Source: an uncultured Prevotellaceae bacterium
Lineage (GTDB): Bacteria; Bacteroidota; Bacteroidia; Bacteroidales; Bacteroidaceae
DNA length: 64,000 nucleotides
Direction: 5' to 3'
Assembly: GCA_946402905.1 (NCBI GenBank)
Contig: CAMIYC010000011.1
Span: forward strand, 23,257 to 87,256
Shown here: positions 40,109 through 49,008 of the stretch, piece after piece
Layout of the letters: each line of letters opens with the position of its first letter
Numbering within the stretch: the stretch's first letter is position 1
Program-made: the position numbers and the translations under genes
The notes under the pieces: model-generated
Database searches by the model: none
Seen by the model: only the letters and a program-made list of their open reading frames with translations
Told to the model about the DNA's origin: nothing

Positions 40109-41686
40109 CTATATTTCCTCCAAGATCTTACCATACTTGTCATACCAAGTGCCGTCTGCAGGATTGCCGTTTTTGAAAGTGCCTTTGAAAAATTCACCCG
40201 TTTCCTTTACATAGTAGGTACCCTCGCTGAAATAGTTGTTTTTAAACGAACCAACGAAAATGTCACCATTGTCGAATGTGAAGGAGCCGTCTTTGCCGTC
40301 TAAGTTACCATTTTTGAATAGTCCTTCATAGTAGTTGCCATTTTTGAAAGAAGCCATACCTTTACCTTGAGGTATCTGATCCTCATTGACTTCACCCGTA
40401 TAAGTGAAATCACCAAGAGCGTTGTGGAAGGGCATGGCTGAAACGTCTACTCTAAACGAGTCGACTACTTCCGCTACAGAGTCGACGACAGCCTCAATAG
40501 TGTCAGTTGTAACAGTTGTTTCCGAATTGCCAATATGGCTAATATAGGCGGCAGTTATCATAATTATTACAAAAAGGAGAGATCCTAAGACTGTAAAAAT
40601 CATTTTCTTCTTCCACAGAGGTTTGCTCGTTTTATTTTGTGAATGAAAACCGGTGCCCTGAGAATTTTCAATCTTAGTCTTTTTCTCAAAAGAATGAACC
40701 TCTTTTTGGGGGTCTTTCCCAAACACCAAAGTATGATCATCTTCCTCTTCAGCCTCTCTAATTATAGGCGTTGCTGTTACAACATCACTTTTTTTCATCA
40801 TTTTACTAACATCCTCCACAGATTGTGGCCTCTCAAATCGGTTTGTCTTCATCAGCCACAGGATAAGATGTCTTGTTGATTGCGACACATTGGCAGGTAG
40901 AGGCAGAGCGAGATGTTTGTCCACTGAGCGATCATCGTCGATATCCGAAGGCAGAGGTGGCCTCTGGTTGGCTAACAGGTTGTAGAGGGTAGCCCCAAGA
41001 GCATATAAATCTGTCCATGGCCCAAATTTCTCAAGATTTTGCTCCATTTGCTCGCGTGGCGCAAAACCATTGGTGAAACTCACTGCTGTGGATGTGGTAG
41101 CCCCACCTCTGTTATCTCGTTGTTTGCTGGCTCCAAAATCAATGAGAGTGACATTCCCCTGCCTGTCTACCATGATGTTTGCTGGTTTCAAGTCAAGATG
41201 CCACAGCCCTTCATTATGAACACATTTCAAAGCGTCAAGTATTTGTGGCAGATATACTTTCACTTCTTTCTCACTGAGTGCTCGCTGTATACGTCGGAGC
41301 CTGACGGAGAGGTTCTCGCCATCAATATAGTCCATCACGTAATATGCTGTGCCGTTTTCCTCAAAGAGGTCATGTACCGACACAATATGCGAATTCCTTA
41401 ACCTACGTAGTCGCCGTGCCTCTTTCTTGAACTTTTGCATTTGTCCTTGAAAGAAGACTTCGTTCTCTGCATTGCTCACGCTCACCGTGGTGTTGTTGGC
41501 ATTACGCTGAGTCACCCCTTTGATGAAAAACTCCTTGATGGCCACCACCTCATCAAATTCTACATTGGTAGCTACATAGGTATTGCCGAAGCCACCAGAA
41601 GAGAGGTAACGTTCGATACGATAAACACCATGAAGGATGGCGCCAACTTTAAGCATAGAGCTTTGATTGATACTATGTTCGCTCAT
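40109..41686 (-). CDS. Membrane-anchored Ser/Thr protein kinase with C-terminal MORN repeats
   Basis: This 525-residue protein has a Hanks-type kinase domain (about 20-290): glycine loop SSGGFGNTY (29-37), lysine K51 in VAIKEFF, catalytic HLDLKPAN (163-170, HLD instead of HRD), and DFG at 183-185. A linker of about 60 residues leads to one membrane helix (361-382), then a short Thr/Asp-rich stretch and MORN-type repeats (YYEGLFKNG, FVGSFKNN, FFKGTFKNG; about 430-520). MORN repeats bind lipids or proteins and would face the periplasm if topology is as predicted. It is coupled by a four-base overlap to the PP2C gene. Its kinase half aligns without gaps to the kinase at 46596-48455. Confidence 0.9.
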   Translation of the reverse strand: MSEHSINQSSMLKVGAILHGVYRIERYLSSGGFGNTYVATNVEFDEVVAIKEFFIKGVTQRNANNTTVSVSNAENEVFFQGQMQKFKKEARRLRRLRNSHIVSVHDLFEENGTAYYVMDYIDGENLSVRLRRIQRALSEKEVKVYLPQILDALKCVHNEGLWHLDLKPANIMVDRQGNVTLIDFGASKQRDNRGGATTSTAVSFTNGFAPREQMEQNLEKFGPWTDLYALGATLYNLLANQRPPLPSDIDDDRSVDKHLALPLPANVSQSTRHLILWLMKTNRFERPQSVEDVSKMMKKSDVVTATPIIREAEEEDDHTLVFGKDPQKEVHSFEKKTKIENSQGTGFHSQNKTSKPLWKKKMIFTVLGSLLFVIIMITAAYISHIGNSETTVTTDTIEAVVDSVAEVVDSFRVDVSAMPFHNALGDFTYTGEVNEDQIPQGKGMASFKNGNYYEGLFKNGNLDGKDGSFTFDNGDIFVGSFKNNYFSEGTYYVKETGEFFKGTFKNGNPADGTWYDKYGKILEEI

Positions 41687-42735
41687 CGTCTAATCGGTTT
41701 AATTTCAATGCTCTGTTGTGTTGAGTCTTGCTGTTTAGCTTCATTTTCGCCCTTATTCAAGCTCATCCAAAAAATGATGGCAAATGCTGTTAAAGCAAGC
41801 GGAATCAGCCAAATCCATTGGCGACCACCTTTGGTGATCGGAGGAATGACGGCAGATTGATGCTCAGGTATATTTGATCGGATGTCCATTTCCACAGCAT
41901 CTACCACCTTGGGTCGGATATTGAGCAAGTTGCAGCGCGATATACCTTCATCGTCAATAATCATCTCGCTCTTATCTCTCATCACTTTCTTAATGTGTAT
42001 CAGTTGTGCAGAGTGGTTGTCGTTATTATGGGCAGTTGCTTCTATAAGCTGTAGCTTCTTGTCTTCATCACTGACCTTATCGTAAAGGATGTCTATCAAC
42101 TGCCTGTCATCCATCTGCTCCATCATCCCGTCACTGCACATATACAAATAATCACCTGCTCGTAGGTCTCCGATATGCACAATGTCTGGTTTCACACGAT
42201 TGTCCTTACCAGGCTGTATCGCCTTTGTGATAATGTTCTTCTGAGGCGATGTGCGCATCTCTTCGTATGAGATTTCTCCCGCTTGGTATAAATCAGCCAC
42301 CAATGAGTGGTCACGGCTTCGATAGAGCAATTGGCGTTCGGATGTCCGAATATGATAGATTCGGCTATCACCAATATGGGCGGCTACACATCCACCTTTG
42401 TGAAATACCACCAATGCAAGTGTGGTGCCCATTTTTTTGTTAGAATCGTCGTCCAAGACATCGAGAGACCTAAAAGCTACTTCAATGGTATCAAGAATGA
42501 ACGAGTCACTTACTCTGTCATCAGCAGGCCAATGGTTCTTCATATAAGTAGAGATTGCTCGGCACACGGTTTGGCTGGCTAACTCCCCATTTTCGTGCCC
42601 CCCCATTCCGTCGCAAAGAATGAACACCCTGTCATCCGTAGTGGCTTTTCCCATGGCAGGATATATCGTGTCTTCCTGTTTGTCGCGATTTCCTATTTCA
42701 TATATGCCTTGTGGCAACTCTATCTTGATTTCCAT
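41683..42735 (-). CDS. PP2C-type Ser/Thr phosphatase with a C-terminal membrane helix
   Basis: The 350-residue protein has the PP2C metal and catalytic motifs GNRDKQEDT, CDGMGGHENGE, GTTLALVV, HIGDSRIY and CSDGMMEQ in the right order within the first 245 residues. A membrane helix near the C-terminus (WIWLIPLALTAFAIIFW) would anchor it, with the phosphatase domain in the cytoplasm. It would reverse the phosphorylation made by the coupled kinase. Its start lies one base after the FHA gene stop, and its end overlaps the kinase start (ATGA), which ties kinase and phosphatase together. Confidence 0.92.
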   Translation of the reverse strand: MEIKIELPQGIYEIGNRDKQEDTIYPAMGKATTDDRVFILCDGMGGHENGELASQTVCRAISTYMKNHWPADDRVSDSFILDTIEVAFRSLDVLDDDSNKKMGTTLALVVFHKGGCVAAHIGDSRIYHIRTSERQLLYRSRDHSLVADLYQAGEISYEEMRTSPQKNIITKAIQPGKDNRVKPDIVHIGDLRAGDYLYMCSDGMMEQMDDRQLIDILYDKVSDEDKKLQLIEATAHNNDNHSAQLIHIKKVMRDKSEMIIDDEGISRCNLLNIRPKVVDAVEMDIRSNIPEHQSAVIPPITKGGRQWIWLIPLALTAFAIIFWMSLNKGENEAKQQDSTQQSIEIKPIRR

Positions 42736-42736
42736 A

Positions 42737-43267
42737 TCATTCTTTCTTAAGAGTCATTTTCGTCAGTCCCATGGTTATTATATCGCCGTTTTCAAGCATC
42801 ACTTCATCATTGTTAAGCAAAGTCAAAGAACGTATTTTTATGGGATTGGGATTTTTGTAGTTGGCTATGGTGACCAACAAATGACCATCTGTTTTCTTCA
42901 CCTTGACGATGGCGTTTTGTCGACTGATATAACGGTCAGTCACTTCAAGCTGGACATCTGCCGACGATTGATTTGACTTGCGCCCAACAATGTTAATCCC
43001 TTCTTGCAATTCATATCTTCTACCCTCGCAAACAATGAAGACTTTGTCCGCCTTATTGGCTAATCCAGCTATCTCTGTATCATTACCATCGCCATATCCA
43101 GGGATAAACGTGTCTGCATCCATCATCTCTTTGCCTTGCTGTTGAAATCTTACCCTCAACCCCATGCCACACTGGGGGCAATTAATGATTTTCACCTCCT
43201 CGTTTTGGGAGTTTCTCACTTCGAGCACCACGCCACACGACGGGCATTTCACTGTCTTGGTTTGCAT
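42737..43267 (-). CDS. Zinc-ribbon and FHA-domain protein
   Basis: This 176-residue cytoplasmic protein starts with a zinc ribbon formed by C8/C11 (CPSCG) and C30/C33 (CPQCG), then a linker, and ends with an FHA domain (about 85-176). GRKSNQSSADVQL and DRYISRQNAIVKV contain the Arg and Ser-Arg residues that contact phosphothreonine, and NNDEVMLENGDII closes the fold. It would bind phosphorylated partners of the neighbouring kinases. It has no membrane segment, unlike the second FHA protein of the cluster, whose zinc ribbon is at the other end. Confidence 0.88.
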   Translation of the reverse strand: MQTKTVKCPSCGVVLEVRNSQNEEVKIINCPQCGMGLRVRFQQQGKEMMDADTFIPGYGDGNDTEIAGLANKADKVFIVCEGRRYELQEGINIVGRKSNQSSADVQLEVTDRYISRQNAIVKVKKTDGHLLVTIANYKNPNPIKIRSLTLLNNDEVMLENGDIITMGLTKMTLKKE

Positions 43268-43277
43268 CTTTTTTTAT

Positions 43278-44138
43278 TTATAAAAAAACAGAACCATCGT
43301 CTATGTAATCCGGCATATCTGTTGCGGCATCAGGATCCCCCATTCCTGCTTGATATTCATCCTCTACAAGTGATACAGGTGGATTGCCTTCCGCGATATC
43401 GCCGATGGTGGTAGCCATTCCTTCACGGAATACAACCACGTCAGGATCCGTGAGTGATTGCGAATCGTCTACGTCGATAATCACAACATCAGCTTGGTCA
43501 TTTCCAGTCATGTCAAGGGCGATAGCATTGTGCCCTTGCACTGTTCCTTGTCCCACGAGATGAACATCTTCATCCTCTGTAGGATATGTGTCGTTGGCAA
43601 TCTCGGAGCTTTGCCTATCAGTATGGGGTTGTACGTCGGGCTTGTTAACCTCCCAGGCTTCCACGACTACCTCTGGATGTGCCTCGTTGATCATGCTGAC
43701 TTCAACATGTTCCGGAGCCACTGGGGCATGCACGGATTGTGCATAATCCATTTTCTGGACATCACTCATTGCATCCCATTCAGTTTCATAGTAGGTGCCA
43801 TAGATTCCACCATGCCAAGCAAACACTCCGCCAGGACCGACTTGTGCCCGTGCAGCGGCGAAAGCCTCATCGAACGACATCCCATTATCTACATGAGCCA
43901 TAGGGGCATCACTATAGACAGGGACATTACCCTTTTCATTAGTATCCGTAATGGCGTTTTCACTCATGCCTTCTTCGTGGCGACTTTCATTGAAATGATT
44001 GACAGCATGCATTCCCATCGCACCGAGTAAAATGCCTGTAGTCGAGCCGAAAGTTACTTTCTTCCAAAGATTGCCATTGCCTTTCTGTTGCCCTACGTTT
44101 GAGGACTTGCTGAATTGTAAGGTGTTTTCGTCATTCAT
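43278..44138 (-). CDS. Acidic protein of unknown family in the kinase cluster
   Basis: I do not recognise the family. The 286-residue product has a short polar N-terminus, then a small hydrophobic glycine-rich stretch (VTFGSTTGILLGAMGMHAV, about 28-46) that could be a membrane segment, and a long acidic remainder. Two segments look conserved in character: FDEAFAAARAQVGPGGVFAWHGG with GTYYETEW after it, and ALDMTGNDQADVVIIDVDD, which resembles a calcium-binding D-x-N-x-D type repeat. It has its own promoter-like element upstream and sits between the two FHA genes. It may be a substrate or scaffold of the kinases, but that is inference from position. Confidence 0.75.
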   Translation of the reverse strand: MNDENTLQFSKSSNVGQQKGNGNLWKKVTFGSTTGILLGAMGMHAVNHFNESRHEEGMSENAITDTNEKGNVPVYSDAPMAHVDNGMSFDEAFAAARAQVGPGGVFAWHGGIYGTYYETEWDAMSDVQKMDYAQSVHAPVAPEHVEVSMINEAHPEVVVEAWEVNKPDVQPHTDRQSSEIANDTYPTEDEDVHLVGQGTVQGHNAIALDMTGNDQADVVIIDVDDSQSLTDPDVVVFREGMATTIGDIAEGNPPVSLVEDEYQAGMGDPDAATDMPDYIDDGSVFL

Positions 44139-44171
44139 AATTGTGATTCTTAATTTTACAAACTTTTAAGG

Positions 44172-44179
44172 CAAAGTTA
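44172..44179 (-). promoter_or_regulatory. Possible internal promoter of the kinase cluster
   Basis: The minus strand reads TAACTTTG, a match to TAnnTTTG, in the only gap longer than 15 bases of the cluster (134 bases). It lies 34 bases before the start at 44138. No clear TTTG -33 is present. Confidence 0.4.
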
Positions 44180-44272
44180 GCTCAATTTATAGTTTTTTTC
44201 CTTTCTTCTAAGGACATTTTCCATGAAATAGTGGAGTTTGATGATGAAATACCTTTTTTTCGTGAAAAAATG

Positions 44273-44965
44273 TCATTTTTTCAATTTGGATTTACATTTA
44301 GGACAACTATCCAAGTTTTTAGTCAAAATGGCGTAATCGGTAAATCCGAAGAAATACCCACATTCCGGACATGGACAACTGTAATCCTTGATGAAACGAT
44401 ACTTGATAGTCTTCAAGTAGTCGTCATCCTTCCGGATATCCTTCCATGTCTTTAATACAAAGAAAATGGTGAGAACGATGATTAGTGCATAGGCGAGAAT
44501 GAATGTTAAACCTCTTCCACCTGAAAAGTAGCTTATGAGAACACCACTCATCGTGATGGCGGGCGTAATACCTCTGATGGCTTGGAATCGTTGTTTTCTC
44601 TGTGTTACCGCTTTGGTGTCTCTGTTGTATGTTTCCCAAACGTCCTTTAAGGGGCGAATGTCGACTTCTTTGGGCATAAATTTGTCTATCACTTCCCATT
44701 TTAGTAGATAGTGGTTGCCACCGAGTTCCACTTTGTCACCGTGCGTCACGATTTTGCTCATCACCGCTACACCGTTGACATACGTTTTGTTTTGAGGATT
44801 GAGGTTATTGATGCGCATCGTTCCGTCATCCTCTATCATTAGCTTACAGTGTTGTCGGCTGATACTCTTTGGTACTGTGCTAAGCGAACTGACTATATGT
44901 GGGGTGTTGTCAACCATCACATAAAGCCAAGAAGTTGTTGCATCACGTCCTATAATGATTTCCAT
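44273..44965 (-). CDS. FHA-domain membrane protein with C-terminal zinc ribbon
   Basis: The 230-residue protein begins with an FHA domain (IIGRDATTS, SISRQHCKLM at 34-43, NKTYVNG at 59-65). Two adjacent hydrophobic segments follow (about 133-150 and 153-170), and the C-terminus is a cysteine-rich zinc ribbon (CPCPECGYFF ... CPKCKSK). The FHA and ribbon would both be cytoplasmic with a hairpin membrane anchor. It is the mirror image of the other FHA protein here (ribbon first, FHA last). It starts 12 bases after the LytTR gene. Confidence 0.88.
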   Translation of the reverse strand: MEIIIGRDATTSWLYVMVDNTPHIVSSLSTVPKSISRQHCKLMIEDDGTMRINNLNPQNKTYVNGVAVMSKIVTHGDKVELGGNHYLLKWEVIDKFMPKEVDIRPLKDVWETYNRDTKAVTQRKQRFQAIRGITPAITMSGVLISYFSGGRGLTFILAYALIIVLTIFFVLKTWKDIRKDDDYLKTIKYRFIKDYSCPCPECGYFFGFTDYAILTKNLDSCPKCKSKLKK

Positions 44966-44977
44966 ATCCTTGCGTTT

Positions 44978-45337
44978 TTATTCTTTTGAATATGTCATAA
45001 ATTCCTTAACACTTTTGACAGCTGCCTTTGATATGGGCAGCTGATAGGCAAAGAGTGAAAAGTCGGATAGGATCACACATTGTTTGGCGAGGCTTACTTC
45101 GTAAATGTATTTCCGATTGATGATGAATCGTTTACCCACCCTCATGAATATGGTCGCTTGTTCTTTCATTTGGACGGCAAGGGCATTCTCCACTTGCCCA
45201 AGACTGAGTGCCACCAAAGCCTTTAGTTTGTTGGCCATAACTACTTTCGTATAATTGCCATCCGCCTCAAAATACACAATCTTATTGATTTCGAATCGAA
45301 GCAGCCGGTCGCGGGAGTTAATGATGATGTAGTTCAT
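44978..45337 (-). CDS. Stand-alone LytTR DNA-binding protein
   Basis: This 119-residue protein is a LytTR domain without a receiver domain: INKIVYFEADGNYTKVVM, TIFMRVGKRFIINRKYIYEV and the final LPISKAAVKSVKEF match the family. It probably regulates the kinase cluster, of which it is the first gene, or other targets; without a receiver its input may be phosphorylation by the neighbouring kinases, which is a guess. A degenerate sensor-kinase-like fragment lies just upstream. Confidence 0.85.
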   Translation of the reverse strand: MNYIIINSRDRLLRFEINKIVYFEADGNYTKVVMANKLKALVALSLGQVENALAVQMKEQATIFMRVGKRFIINRKYIYEVSLAKQCVILSDFSLFAYQLPISKAAVKSVKEFMTYSKE

Positions 45338-45411
45338 ATGTCAGTTTTTAAGCTAACCTAAAATATGTTTGGCTGTAAAGTCCATAACAGTGTAGCATCT
45401 GATACACTTTG

Positions 45412-45419
45412 CAAAAATA
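45412..45419 (-). promoter_or_regulatory. -7 element of the LytTR-FHA-PP2C-kinase operon
   Basis: The minus strand reads TATTTTTG, matching TAnnTTTG, with a TTG 18 bases upstream (45438-45440). The leader to the LytTR start is about 70 bases. Confidence 0.5.
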
Positions 45420-45460
45420 GGAAAAAAGTAGAAAAAACAATGCTTCTTTTTAGAATAGTT

Positions 45461-45688
45461 CTAAAAAATAATGTATAATTCAATAATTATTATTATCGCC
45501 ACATCGAGATTGACGGCATGAAGATGGTTGCGTTCAATAATTCTCATACTATGGCCTGTTTTTGTGGCAGCTTTGGTATCAAGGCCTCTACCATTCTTCC
45601 CAATTATATCAGCAAGGCTGGCTGTCCGAAGCGTTTCTGATATTTCGCGTAAGAGGAAATGAGAAAAAATTTGATTTCTTTTTTGCAA
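45461..45688 (-). pseudogene. Possible remnant of a sensor histidine kinase ATPase domain
   Basis: The 75-residue ORF contains NGRGLDTKAATKTGHSMRII, which resembles the G-x-G-F-D ... GHG-(L/M)-R-I-I region of HATPase domains in LytS/NarX-like sensors. The preceding LLREISETLRTA recalls the conserved N-box helix. The conserved part is short and the C-terminus degenerates into IIIIIELYIIF. It lies on the same strand just upstream of the LytTR gene, where a sensor partner would be expected. It may be a decayed partner gene; chance similarity is not excluded. Confidence 0.25.
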
Positions 45689-45713
45689 TATCCATTCTAA
45701 AGTATTACCTTTG
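45682..45713 (+). promoter_or_regulatory. Promoter of the Fib_succ_major-domain gene
   Basis: TTTG (45682-45685), exactly 20 bases, then TACCTTTG (45706-45713), an exact match to the Bacteroidetes consensus. The start codon at 45771 is about 57 bases downstream. Confidence 0.8.
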
Positions 45714-45770
45714 CTAGAAGAATGACCTCAAAGTCATGTCTCTCATTTCAATAATCAAATCATCCATTCC

Positions 45771-46547
45771 ATGAATATGAAAAGACTGATCATCTTCCTC
45801 GCCTATTTGCTCATGACGACGACTGTCCCGGCGCAGGATCACCACGTCCGCCGGCAGCCGAAGTCTGTGCAGCAGACAAAAACGAAGCCTGTCGCCAAGC
45901 CTCAATCAAAGCCAGTCACCAAACCCTCATCCCGACCAGTTTCGAAAGCCAGGTCGTCTCAACCATCAAATGTGCCCCTCTGTCCCGACAACCACCATCC
46001 TCACATGATTGATCTTGGCCTTCCCTCTGGCACAAAGTGGGCCTGCTGCAACGTCGGAGCCGACAAACCAGAAGCCTATGGCGGTTATTACGCTTGGGGT
46101 GAGACCGAGACGAAATACGAATATAGTTGGAAAACTTACAAATATTGTGACGGAACATCTAACTGTAAGAGCCTTGGATGGGATATCGCTGATACGAGTT
46201 ACGACGTTGCTCATGTGAAATGGGGCGATAGATGGGTGCTACCGTTACATGATCAACAGGAAGAATTGATGAATAATTGCACTTGTAAATGGATGACCAT
46301 GAATGGTGTCGCGGGAGAAAAGTTCACCAGTAAGAGGAACGGTGCGAGCATCTTCTTGCCTGCAGCGGGCTATCGTGACGATTCCGGCCTCGACTATGTC
46401 GGCTCTTACGGATTTTACTGGTCGTCGACGCAGAATCCGTCATACTCGCACTACGCCTACTACTTGGACTTCAATTCGGCCAACGTGGACTGGTACGGAA
46501 TCAGCTGCTACCTTGGTCAGAGCGTACGCCCCGTCTCCAGTAATTAA
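45771..46547 (+). CDS. Exported Fib_succ_major-domain protein
   Basis: This 258-residue protein has a signal peptide (MNMKRLIIFLAYLLMTT, cleavage after VPA), then a basic proline-rich linker (KPVAKPQSKPVTKPSSRPV), and a C-terminal domain of the 'Fibrobacter succinogenes major paralogous' type: DLGLPSGTKWACCNVGA, GYYAWGETETK, GWDIADTSYDVAHV, WVLPLHDQQEEL and FYWSSTQN. These domains are common in surface proteins of Bacteroidales and are probably ligand-binding; function is not established. It is the only plus-strand gene inside the kinase region and has a consensus promoter, so it is separately controlled. Confidence 0.8.
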   Translation: MNMKRLIIFLAYLLMTTTVPAQDHHVRRQPKSVQQTKTKPVAKPQSKPVTKPSSRPVSKARSSQPSNVPLCPDNHHPHMIDLGLPSGTKWACCNVGADKPEAYGGYYAWGETETKYEYSWKTYKYCDGTSNCKSLGWDIADTSYDVAHVKWGDRWVLPLHDQQEELMNNCTCKWMTMNGVAGEKFTSKRNGASIFLPAAGYRDDSGLDYVGSYGFYWSSTQNPSYSHYAYYLDFNSANVDWYGISCYLGQSVRPVSSN

Positions 46548-46595
46548 TGCTTTTTTCCAGCCAATCCCCTATCATGTAGTATGCCCTAAGCCCAC

Positions 46596-48455
46596 TTAGT
46601 TATTATTGATAAACATGCTGGTAAAACCTACTCCCAATAAAAATATCCATAATATGATATAGAATAGAAACAATTTCAAAGTTCTTAACTTGATTTGTTG
46701 AAATTTTGAATCATATATTTGAAAAGCATACTCTTTTGTCGTCCAAATGTTTGTGTCAGAATTATAGATCAACTGTCTATTTCTTTTCCAATATAAAAAA
46801 ATAAAATAACCAACACACATTCCTCCAAGTTCAATGACGGTAACTATCGAGTTTCCTAATGCAGAGATAAATAATAATAATATTATTAATGGAGCTAACC
46901 ACTTTATTTTGAAATTCCAAATTTTTTCTTTAGGGAACGACAGTAAGAAAGCTAGTATTATAGCATAGATTGCCCCAGATGCTCCTACGGTGGTCCATGA
47001 GTTGAGTGTATTGGCCAGCGAGATGTCGTGCATGGCCTGTCTAAAGGGAGTGAAGAAACCGATATCAGGCAATTGTCCTGACATGATATAGAAAAGGGAG
47101 CAGTATTGAAATATTTCTTGGATGACTCCTGCCCCCACACTGCACAAAATGTAATAAAAAAGGAATTTTTTGGGTCCCCATACTCTCTCTACTATGCACC
47201 CGAACATCCACAGTGCGAACATATTGAAGAAAAGATGATCCCATCCACCATGCATGAACATGTAGGTAAACAACTGATACAACTTGAAATCGGAAGCCAG
47301 GAAAAAATGCAATCCGAAAATATCGTTCAGGTCGATGCCTCTCATTATGAGCACATAATATGTCAGAAAAGCCAGAATATTTATTATCATCAGAATCTTA
47401 GTAATGCTAAATAAGCGCCTCTTACTAGATGCAACTTCTTTTTGGGAATCATGTGTATTTTGTTCCTGATCCTGTACATTAAAAATTTGAGTTTTTTCAT
47501 ATATCTCTTCATTCTCAAAATCGTTACTGTCACTCTCCTCGGGGCTGCATTTTGCAAAAAGAAGATTTTGTTGCTCTATAAGTGCATGAATGTTTTGTGG
47601 TCTGTCCATCCTATCAGTCTTCATCAACCAAAGAATGAGTTTCTTCATCTCATAACTGACAAAAGACATCGGCAAAGCAATGTGCTTGTCTGCTGAGCGG
47701 TCATCGTCGATATCAGATGGTAACGGCGGTTTTTTGTTCGTCAATAGATTATAAATGGTCGCGCCGAGCGCATAAATATCAGTCCATGGCCCGAACTTCT
47801 CTAAGTTCTGCTCCATCTGTTCGCGTGGAGCAAAACCATTGGTGTAACCAACTGATGTGGAGGTGGTTGCGCCTCCAGTTGCACTGCGCTGTTTGCTTGC
47901 GCCGAAGTCGATGAGCGTGATATTCCCCTGTCTGTCGACCATAATATTGGCGGGCTTCAAGTCAAGGTGCCATAGATTCTCTTGGTGCACACATGCCAAT
48001 GCATCAAGTATCTGGGGCAAGTATTTCATCACCTCTTTCTCAGAAAACGGTTTTCGTAAACGTTTCAACTTATCTGACAGGTTCTCACCATCAATATAGT
48101 CCATCACATAATATGCCGTGCCATTCTCCTCAAAAAGGTCGTGAACTCGAACGATATGCTCATTCTTTAGTTTGCGAAGCCGTCGTGCCTCTTTTTTGAA
48201 TTTCTGCAATTGTTCATTAAAGAGGTCCTTGTTCTCAATGTTACTAACACTCACGGTGGTATTGTTGGCATCGCGTTGTGTCACTCCACGGATGAAAAAC
48301 TCTTTGATGGCCACTACCTCATCAAACTCGATATTTGTGGCTAAATATGTGTTGCCAAAACCACCCGAAGAGAGATAGCTATCTATGCGGTATACATTCC
48401 TCAAGATACATCCTACAGGAAGCATAACTCCTCTATTTACATGATGTTCGTTCAT
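46596..48455 (-). CDS. Ser/Thr kinase fused to a rhomboid domain lacking the catalytic histidine
   Basis: This 619-residue protein has a Hanks-type kinase domain with SSGGFGNTY, K51 in VAIKEFF, HLDLKPAN (163-170) and DFG (183-185), collinear with the other kinase in the window up to about residue 275. A linker (about 290-345) leads to a six- or seven-helix rhomboid domain (about 350-560). That domain keeps WDHLFFNMFALWMFG (H407 and N411 of the HxxxN motif) and the GASG serine S493. At the place of the catalytic histidine (normally H-x-G-G) it has E542 in VIELGGMCVGY. A last helix (about 593-613) follows. It could be a membrane-binding pseudoprotease or a protease with altered chemistry. Confidence 0.9.
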   Translation of the reverse strand: MNEHHVNRGVMLPVGCILRNVYRIDSYLSSGGFGNTYLATNIEFDEVVAIKEFFIRGVTQRDANNTTVSVSNIENKDLFNEQLQKFKKEARRLRKLKNEHIVRVHDLFEENGTAYYVMDYIDGENLSDKLKRLRKPFSEKEVMKYLPQILDALACVHQENLWHLDLKPANIMVDRQGNITLIDFGASKQRSATGGATTSTSVGYTNGFAPREQMEQNLEKFGPWTDIYALGATIYNLLTNKKPPLPSDIDDDRSADKHIALPMSFVSYEMKKLILWLMKTDRMDRPQNIHALIEQQNLLFAKCSPEESDSNDFENEEIYEKTQIFNVQDQEQNTHDSQKEVASSKRRLFSITKILMIINILAFLTYYVLIMRGIDLNDIFGLHFFLASDFKLYQLFTYMFMHGGWDHLFFNMFALWMFGCIVERVWGPKKFLFYYILCSVGAGVIQEIFQYCSLFYIMSGQLPDIGFFTPFRQAMHDISLANTLNSWTTVGASGAIYAIILAFLLSFPKEKIWNFKIKWLAPLIILLLFISALGNSIVTVIELGGMCVGYFIFLYWKRNRQLIYNSDTNIWTTKEYAFQIYDSKFQQIKLRTLKLFLFYIILWIFLLGVGFTSMFINNN

Positions 48456-48570
48456 ACAAGTTTCTTGATTTAGTATTTCCTATGTGAATTCTGCTGAAAG
48501 GTCATCATTTTGGGGCCAGTCTTTTTTGTATAACGCACCATCTTACTTTATTTGTTGGAAATTAAATAAT

Positions 48571-49008
48571 TTACTCTGATAAAACGACTTTAAGAGTGGT
48601 GGCACCAGAAGTGGCAGAACCTCTCCATTCCTTAGATGATGTGCGAGATAACGACAAATACAACGTTCGACCTGGGTCATACAACTCAATAGAACCGTTA
48701 GAATGATACGTTCCTACAATTTCCAGACTTACTTTTTGACTGATGTTTTTATAAACACCATTAATACCACCATCGTTTTCAATCTGTATAGAGAATTCAA
48801 CAGGCCATGAATGTTTGTTGTTGTAAAATGAACCTTTCAGAAGATGATGATTTGTTAAAATATTTTTTCTTGGCATACTATTCTTTTCAGCATTCGTTCT
48901 TGTTTGAGAAGATGCGGCATTTCGCCTGACAGTGTGGGTCTGAGCAGACATATCAAGACTTGTCAATATCATCACAAAGAAGAGCGTAACGAATAATATT
49001 GGTCTCAT
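48571..49008 (-). CDS. Small exported protein of unknown function
   Basis: The 145-residue product has a signal peptide (MRPILFVTLFFVMILTS, cleavage after MSA) and a mature part that begins QTHTVRRNAASSQTRTN, similar in style to the start of the mature Fib_succ_major protein (HHVRRQPKSVQQTKT). The remainder is a beta-rich domain (FSIQIENDGGINGVYKN, LEIVGTYHSNGSIELY). I do not recognise the family. It lies upstream of the kinase-rhomboid gene on the same strand with 115 bases between and no promoter in the gap, so the two are probably co-transcribed; it might be periplasmic input for that kinase. Confidence 0.7.
   Translation of the reverse strand: MRPILFVTLFFVMILTSLDMSAQTHTVRRNAASSQTRTNAEKNSMPRKNILTNHHLLKGSFYNNKHSWPVEFSIQIENDGGINGVYKNISQKVSLEIVGTYHSNGSIELYDPGRTLYLSLSRTSSKEWRGSATSGATTLKVVLSE

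Follow-up and report, generated by a model that had tools for sequence, protein, structure and literature searches.

A Ser/Thr kinase of a Prevotellaceae bacterium fused to a rhomboid-fold tail that lacks the catalytic histidine and is probably a pseudoprotease

What use might a bacterial Ser/Thr kinase make of a rhomboid domain that has lost the histidine of its catalytic dyad? The question is raised by a gene in a 64,000-nucleotide stretch of contig CAMIYC010000011.1 (the window; all positions are given in it), from the draft assembly (117 contigs) of a rumen-type Prevotellaceae bacterium in which the gene is seen once. Its reading frame starts with ATG, is translated with no internal stop codon, and divides as follows.

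46596..48455, minus strand: kinase-rhomboid fusion gene, 619 amino acids (open reading frame, translation, Pfam Pkinase and Rhomboid)
47592..48386, minus strand: Hanks-type Ser/Thr kinase domain, residues 24-288 (Pfam PF00069, 137 bits; codons)
47391..47591, minus strand: AT-rich cytoplasmic linker, residues 289-344, and apparently old N-terminal edge of the rhomboid domain, residues 345-355, KRRLFSITKIL (alignment, composition)
46959..47390, minus strand: putatively converted block, residues 356-499, from TM1 to the start of TM4, with H407, N411 and S493 (steps in identity, synonymous differences and GC3)
46977..46979, minus strand: S493 of the GASG motif, within the putatively converted block (alignment, codons)
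46761..46958, minus strand: apparently old, diverged rhomboid block, residues 500-565, with TM5 and TM6, IELGGMCVGYFIFLYW (alignment, composition, HMM)
46830..46832, minus strand: E542 (GAA), replacing the catalytic His (alignment; His in 62 of 62 orthologues)
46599..46760, minus strand: tail, residues 566-619, with a seventh hydrophobic helix at about 586-608 (AlphaFold helix, 246-268 of the model; hydropathy)

Both halves of the protein are matched by Pfam well above the cut-off, Pkinase at residues 24-288 (137 bits) and Rhomboid at residues 391-556 (76 bits). The first-pass annotation of this DNA had described a complete Hanks-type kinase with K51, D165 and a DFG motif at 183-185, and the codons and the Pfam match agree with it: the VAIK lysine K51 (AAA), the HxD aspartate (H163-L-D165; CAC and GAC) and the DFG aspartate D183 (GAC) are all present. 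The solved structure closest to this domain is PpkA (5hnv, E 2.2e-31). The protein is not a PASTA kinase of the Stk1/PknB type, as judged from a score of 153.9 bits against a cut-off of 450 for model NF033483, with a match that covers the kinase part only. A sister kinase encoded at the same locus is 64% identical to the kinase part of the fusion.

The second half is equally clear as regards its fold. An AlphaFold model built with an alignment of 49 rhomboids contains six rhomboid helices and a seventh (mean pLDDT 82). A Foldseek comparison of this model with the PDB placed GlpG first (probability 1.0; target TM-score 0.73-0.79 for the top matches), followed by the structures of iRhom1 and iRhom2. 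Together with the Pfam score, this GlpG-like six-helix model assigns the domain to the rhomboid superfamily. Besides the kinase families, Pfam finds in the fusion PF01694 and a weak match to DUF1751 and nothing more, and no homologue of the tail (residues 566-619) was found when one was sought. Charged motifs, KRR ahead of TM1 and KRNR behind TM6, match rhomboid topology and would thus leave the kinase domain in the cytosol.

Two rhomboids of the assembly score above the cut-off for the family, the fusion and a standalone protein of 308 amino acids (the resident rhomboid; G000:C99, L112:3430-4356), whose gene lies on contig C99 flanked by secDF and hup, neighbours that were named from their sequences. 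Its motifs are normal for the family (GASG, VAHFAHLGGM). A control model of the resident rhomboid gave the same ranking in Foldseek, with GlpG ahead of the iRhoms and TM-scores of about 0.63-0.73.

The active-site residues of the fusion were then read by codon. As had been noted from the sequence, H407 (CAT), N411 (AAT) and the GASG serine S493 (TCT) are intact, and Y497 is present beside them. In TM6 the LGGM-G-Y core is retained and the histidines are gone. The column occupied by E542 (GAA) is His in 62 of 62 standalone orthologues and in the resident rhomboid, and aligns, weakly, to H254 in the AHIAG motif of GlpG; the preceding TM6 histidine, present in all 62 orthologues, is T539 (ACC) in the fusion. 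The resident rhomboid uses CAC where the fusion has GAA, a difference of two bases, so a lone sequencing error does not account for E542. In the AlphaFold helices E542 is residue 6 of TM6 and H207 of the resident model is residue 7, so that, as judged by helix position, E542 appears to occupy the place in TM6 equivalent to that of the resident's histidine, as the earlier reading of the sequence had proposed.

The fusion therefore has the serine of GxSG in TM4, though within the block discussed below as copied, and Glu instead of the catalytic His in TM6. A rhomboid fold that lacks one or both residues of the dyad is one mark of a pseudoprotease, and the fusion shows it. Since the Ser-His dyad is absent, the function of the tail is most likely a non-proteolytic one. 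It belongs to neither of the eukaryotic pseudoprotease families, iRhoms and Derlins, as its N-terminal block is placed by phylogeny as sister to the resident bacterial rhomboid.

The residues shared with the resident rhomboid are unevenly distributed along the domain. Residues 356-499 are 94% identical to it in amino acids and 92% in DNA (blastn, 401 of 434 identities at 46960-47393), and the two genes have an exact stretch of 86 bases in common. On either side identity falls to 45% (residues 343-355, the 5' side) and 34% (residues 500-560, the 3' side). In 1,891 orthologue pairs the opposite is seen, the C-terminal block being the better conserved (mean 74% versus 61%). Of the codons for identical residues, 22 of the 136 within the block differ synonymously, compared with 15 of the 21 within the C-terminal block (Fisher p = 6e-7); in a control comparison of the resident gene with its nearest orthologue (L064, from genome G831, which is without the fusion) there was no such contrast (p = 0.27). 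GC3 drops from 0.52 within the copied block to 0.29 in the linker on one side, and to 0.27 in the C-terminal block and 0.33 for the tail on the other. Of the near-invariant positions, the block has 1 of 41 broken and the part that follows residue 500 has 16 of 32, among them both TM6 histidines; at the N-terminal edge, P349F and N354I likewise break near-invariant positions.

Two accounts of the diverged C-terminal block were considered and rejected. Unrelated transmembrane sequence is excluded by its score on the rhomboid HMM, 26 bits for the block alone compared with at most 9.1 bits for 2,000 shuffled sequences, and a frameshift is excluded by tblastn, which shows one in-frame match.

The domain is thus a mosaic, and appears to consist of an old, decayed rhomboid tail that has been overwritten at TM1-TM4. 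The step in synonymous divergence and the step in GC3 fit gene conversion, in which the resident gene would have donated the block to an older rhomboid tail. A tree of the C-terminal block leaves a sister position to the resident rhomboid standing (p-AU 0.55), on a saturated branch; the topology is therefore compatible with one duplication event after which decay was extremely uneven. If one half had simply decayed faster, however, this would not by itself be sufficient for the synonymous and compositional steps found on both sides.

A different origin for the same pattern would be an assembly chimera, in which the kinase was assembled with reads that stem from two rhomboid loci or from two strains. 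In its favour, the genome is a draft, the fusion is seen once, and the fusion and the resident gene have the exact 86-base stretch in common. Nevertheless, both edges of the copied block are in frame and lie at homologous rhomboid positions, the block is only 92% identical to the resident gene, with mostly synonymous changes, and the outer rhomboid segments have the low GC of the linker and a best identity of about 41% to any other gene. We consider a chimera very improbable.

The gene is also not obviously a pseudogene. The frame stays open through the AT-rich C-terminal tail, as none of 20,000 shuffled sequences does, and the changes in the copied block lean to the synonymous: about 9 nonsynonymous changes over 343 sites and 11 synonymous changes over 89 sites fall on the fusion branch, as estimated with distant outgroups and with ten changes unpolarised. 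The nonsynonymous changes are well below the neutral expectation, which suggests that the copied block has probably been constrained after conversion.

The mosaic also bears on whether the tail could be a protease of another chemistry, with Glu542 (as a Ser-Glu dyad) or another residue acting for the histidine. Glutamate is part of the catalytic site in some serine proteases, for example the sedolisins, and S493, the HxxxN motif and Y497 are all in place. However, the serine and HxxxN derive from the copied block, and so are not maintained by selection for Ser-Glu chemistry; H542E is accompanied by H539T and 14 other near-invariant changes; and the substitution is found in one gene, against a histidine kept in 62 of 62 orthologues. 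Such a protease has, in our view, very little chance of being correct. As Ser and HxxxN sit in the donated block they are no sign of retained catalysis, and the simplest inference from the sequence is a catalytically dead rhomboid. Of the alternatives offered by the first-pass annotation, a new membrane sensor or adaptor or a protease with altered chemistry, the kinase with a His-less rhomboid stands, a pseudoprotease being the likeliest form of it. The altered chemistry draws no support from the intact GASG and HxxxN, which come from a 434-bp copied tract, while in the older part, with E542, half of the near-invariant residues are gone.

In a separate observation, a standalone rhomboid whose motif is GFSG rather than GASG (L115:1264-2166, genome G420) has a TM6 end, LGGMVIGYFIILYWKN, that is the closest found to the C-terminal block of the fusion.

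The fusion and its glutamate are known from one genome only. In searches with the rhomboid part in 301 genomes of the family, and with the C-terminal part in 398 genomes of the same genus, no second fusion was among the matches listed; nor was one found among the best 80 loci of a scan of 85,000 GTDB species, in the nine nearest relatives, or with the whole protein in 399 genomes of the family and in 396 of the phylum, the last with a strict E cut-off that might let distant fusions escape. Kinase matches in the family sample stop near residues 290-390 and rhomboid matches start near residues 330-350, in separate genes. Some kinases of the same family (at loci L046, L047, L059, L060 and L065) have tails with four or five predicted TM segments, mostly without a Pfam match; when tested as hidden rhomboids these tails gave no rhomboid match. 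The literature searched held nothing relevant on kinase-rhomboid fusions or bacterial pseudo-rhomboids.

The neighbourhood of the gene places the kinase in a signalling locus, which comprises the following genes.

40109..41686, minus strand: sister kinase, with kinase domain, TM helix and MORN-like tail (open reading frame, Pfam)
41683..42735, minus strand: PP2C phosphatase (Pfam PF13672)
42737..43267, minus strand: protein with zinc ribbon and FHA domain (Pfam)
43278..44138, minus strand: conserved locus protein, family unassigned (in the locus of most relatives)
44273..44965, minus strand: FHA and membrane protein (Pfam PF00498, 42 bits)
44978..45337, minus strand: LytTR DNA-binding protein (Pfam PF04397)

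This arrangement, LytTR, FHA, the unassigned protein, zinc-ribbon FHA, PP2C and one to several kinases, is a recurrent locus of Prevotellaceae, found also at L033, L034, L036-L038, L046, L047 and L057 with kinase tails that differ by lineage. The protein at 43278-44138 has no Pfam or NCBIfam match, and the gene order is conserved in nearly all of the relatives' loci. The kinases share a common catalytic domain and carry unrelated tails, namely FGE-sulfatase, FISUMP-like Lcl_C, TonB_C, MORN, FKBP, WG, Sel1 repeats, SH3, DUF805 and thioredoxin-like; those of the relatives are mostly anchored via one TM helix. No paper on the locus was found in the literature searched. The rhomboid is one lineage-specific tail in a family of kinases that swap their tails, and its relative is a housekeeping membrane enzyme. 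The fusion is thus real, and the 'new type of membrane sensor' that had been proposed is better described as one tail among many that are freely exchanged.

The best explanation of these data, and as a whole one that we rate a little above even, is a kinase anchored by a catalytically dead rhomboid tail that serves for anchoring or client binding. An inner-membrane, PpkA-like Ser/Thr kinase would have its cytosolic domain held by the rhomboid-fold tail, which may act both as the anchor and as a platform that binds the transmembrane segments of client proteins and leaves them uncut. Clients, or the state of the membrane at the tail, might alter the activity of the kinase or recruit its substrates; the FHA proteins would recognise the phosphorylation, and the PP2C encoded nearby would reverse it. 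As regards its history, a kinase of the tail-swapping family would have gained a rhomboid tail, of which TM5-TM6 then decayed with loss of both TM6 histidines; the TM1-TM4 half would later have been overwritten by gene conversion, with the active-type gene of the resident rhomboid as the donor.

Among the rivals, a passive anchor is the most plausible, followed by a decoy for the resident protease and then by the Ser-Glu protease and the assembly chimera, which are on a par. For the first, any hydrophobic tail would anchor the kinase, and the rhomboid fold would be a decaying passenger with no function of its own. The usual single TM helix and unrelated tails of the relatives' kinases fit such a passenger, as do the occurrence of the fusion in one genome and the loss of half of the near-invariant positions of the C-terminal block. 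It sits less well with a frame open across 619 codons, a fold predicted with good confidence, the retained LGGM-G-Y core of TM6 and the synonymous lean of the changes in the converted block, and we hold it to be possible but unlikely. For the second, the tail would be a brake or decoy acting on the resident rhomboid, by competition for substrates or by pairing, under control of the kinase. Entry of substrates into rhomboids depends also on TM5, however, which is diverged in the fusion, and we think this role improbable. In its favour are the TM1-TM4 half, 94% identical to that of the resident rhomboid and renewed by copying, and the inhibition of rhomboid-dependent signalling by eukaryotic iRhoms (PMC3149277). 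An extension of the anchor and client-binding account, rather doubtful in our estimate, would be a bacterial counterpart of the iRhoms: a pseudo-rhomboid that binds the membrane clients of the cell's own active rhomboid, controls the kinase and is thereby directly coupled to phosphorylation signalling, with its binding half renewed by repeated conversion and its catalytic half free to decay.

Comparison with known systems shows where the fusion departs from them. With bacterial rhomboid proteases (GlpG and the secDF-linked rhomboid of Prevotellaceae) it shares the fold, the six core helices, HxxxN, GASG and the LGGM-G motif of TM6. Unlike them, it has Glu for the catalytic His and Thr for the preceding His, a shorter TM4-TM5 loop, a seventh helix and an N-terminal kinase. 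It resembles iRhoms and Derlins in having a rhomboid fold without the catalytic dyad, but these are eukaryotic families with domains of their own (PMC12615303), whereas the fusion is bacterial, apparently derived in part from a protease of the same genome, and joined to a kinase. Its nearest structure, PpkA, and its FHA and PP2C neighbours recall the PpkA/FHA/PP2C modules of threonine phosphorylation; in contrast to these, no secretion-system genes are among the annotated neighbours (40109-49008). As a membrane kinase with a tail domain it is also like the transmembrane Ser/Thr kinases with extracytoplasmic tails, of which those with FGE or prolyl-isomerase tails have already been described (PMC1262709). 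The tail of the fusion differs from those in that survey in having the fold of an intramembrane protease, and rhomboid is mentioned there not once.

Tail-swapping membrane kinases and rhomboid pseudoproteases are thus already known, and the kinase-rhomboid fusion is new to the literature searched and the genomes sampled; its reach is limited, as it is known from one genome. What it adds is a case in which the tails swapped by the LytTR-FHA-PP2C kinase loci of Prevotellaceae include one that probably comes from a housekeeping membrane enzyme, and in which a seemingly young pseudoprotease and its active-type parent occur in one genome with the probable conversion tract still visible. Such a pair may therefore serve as a natural experiment on the importance of either half of a rhomboid after the loss of proteolysis.

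The fusion gene is flanked by two genes for exported proteins, at 45771-46547 (plus strand) and 48571-49008 (minus strand), whose products begin similarly after the signal peptide (AQ-H-VRR) and are related by a weak BLAST match (E 3e-4). The product of the former has an Lcl_C-type domain, one that is found fused to kinases in relatives.
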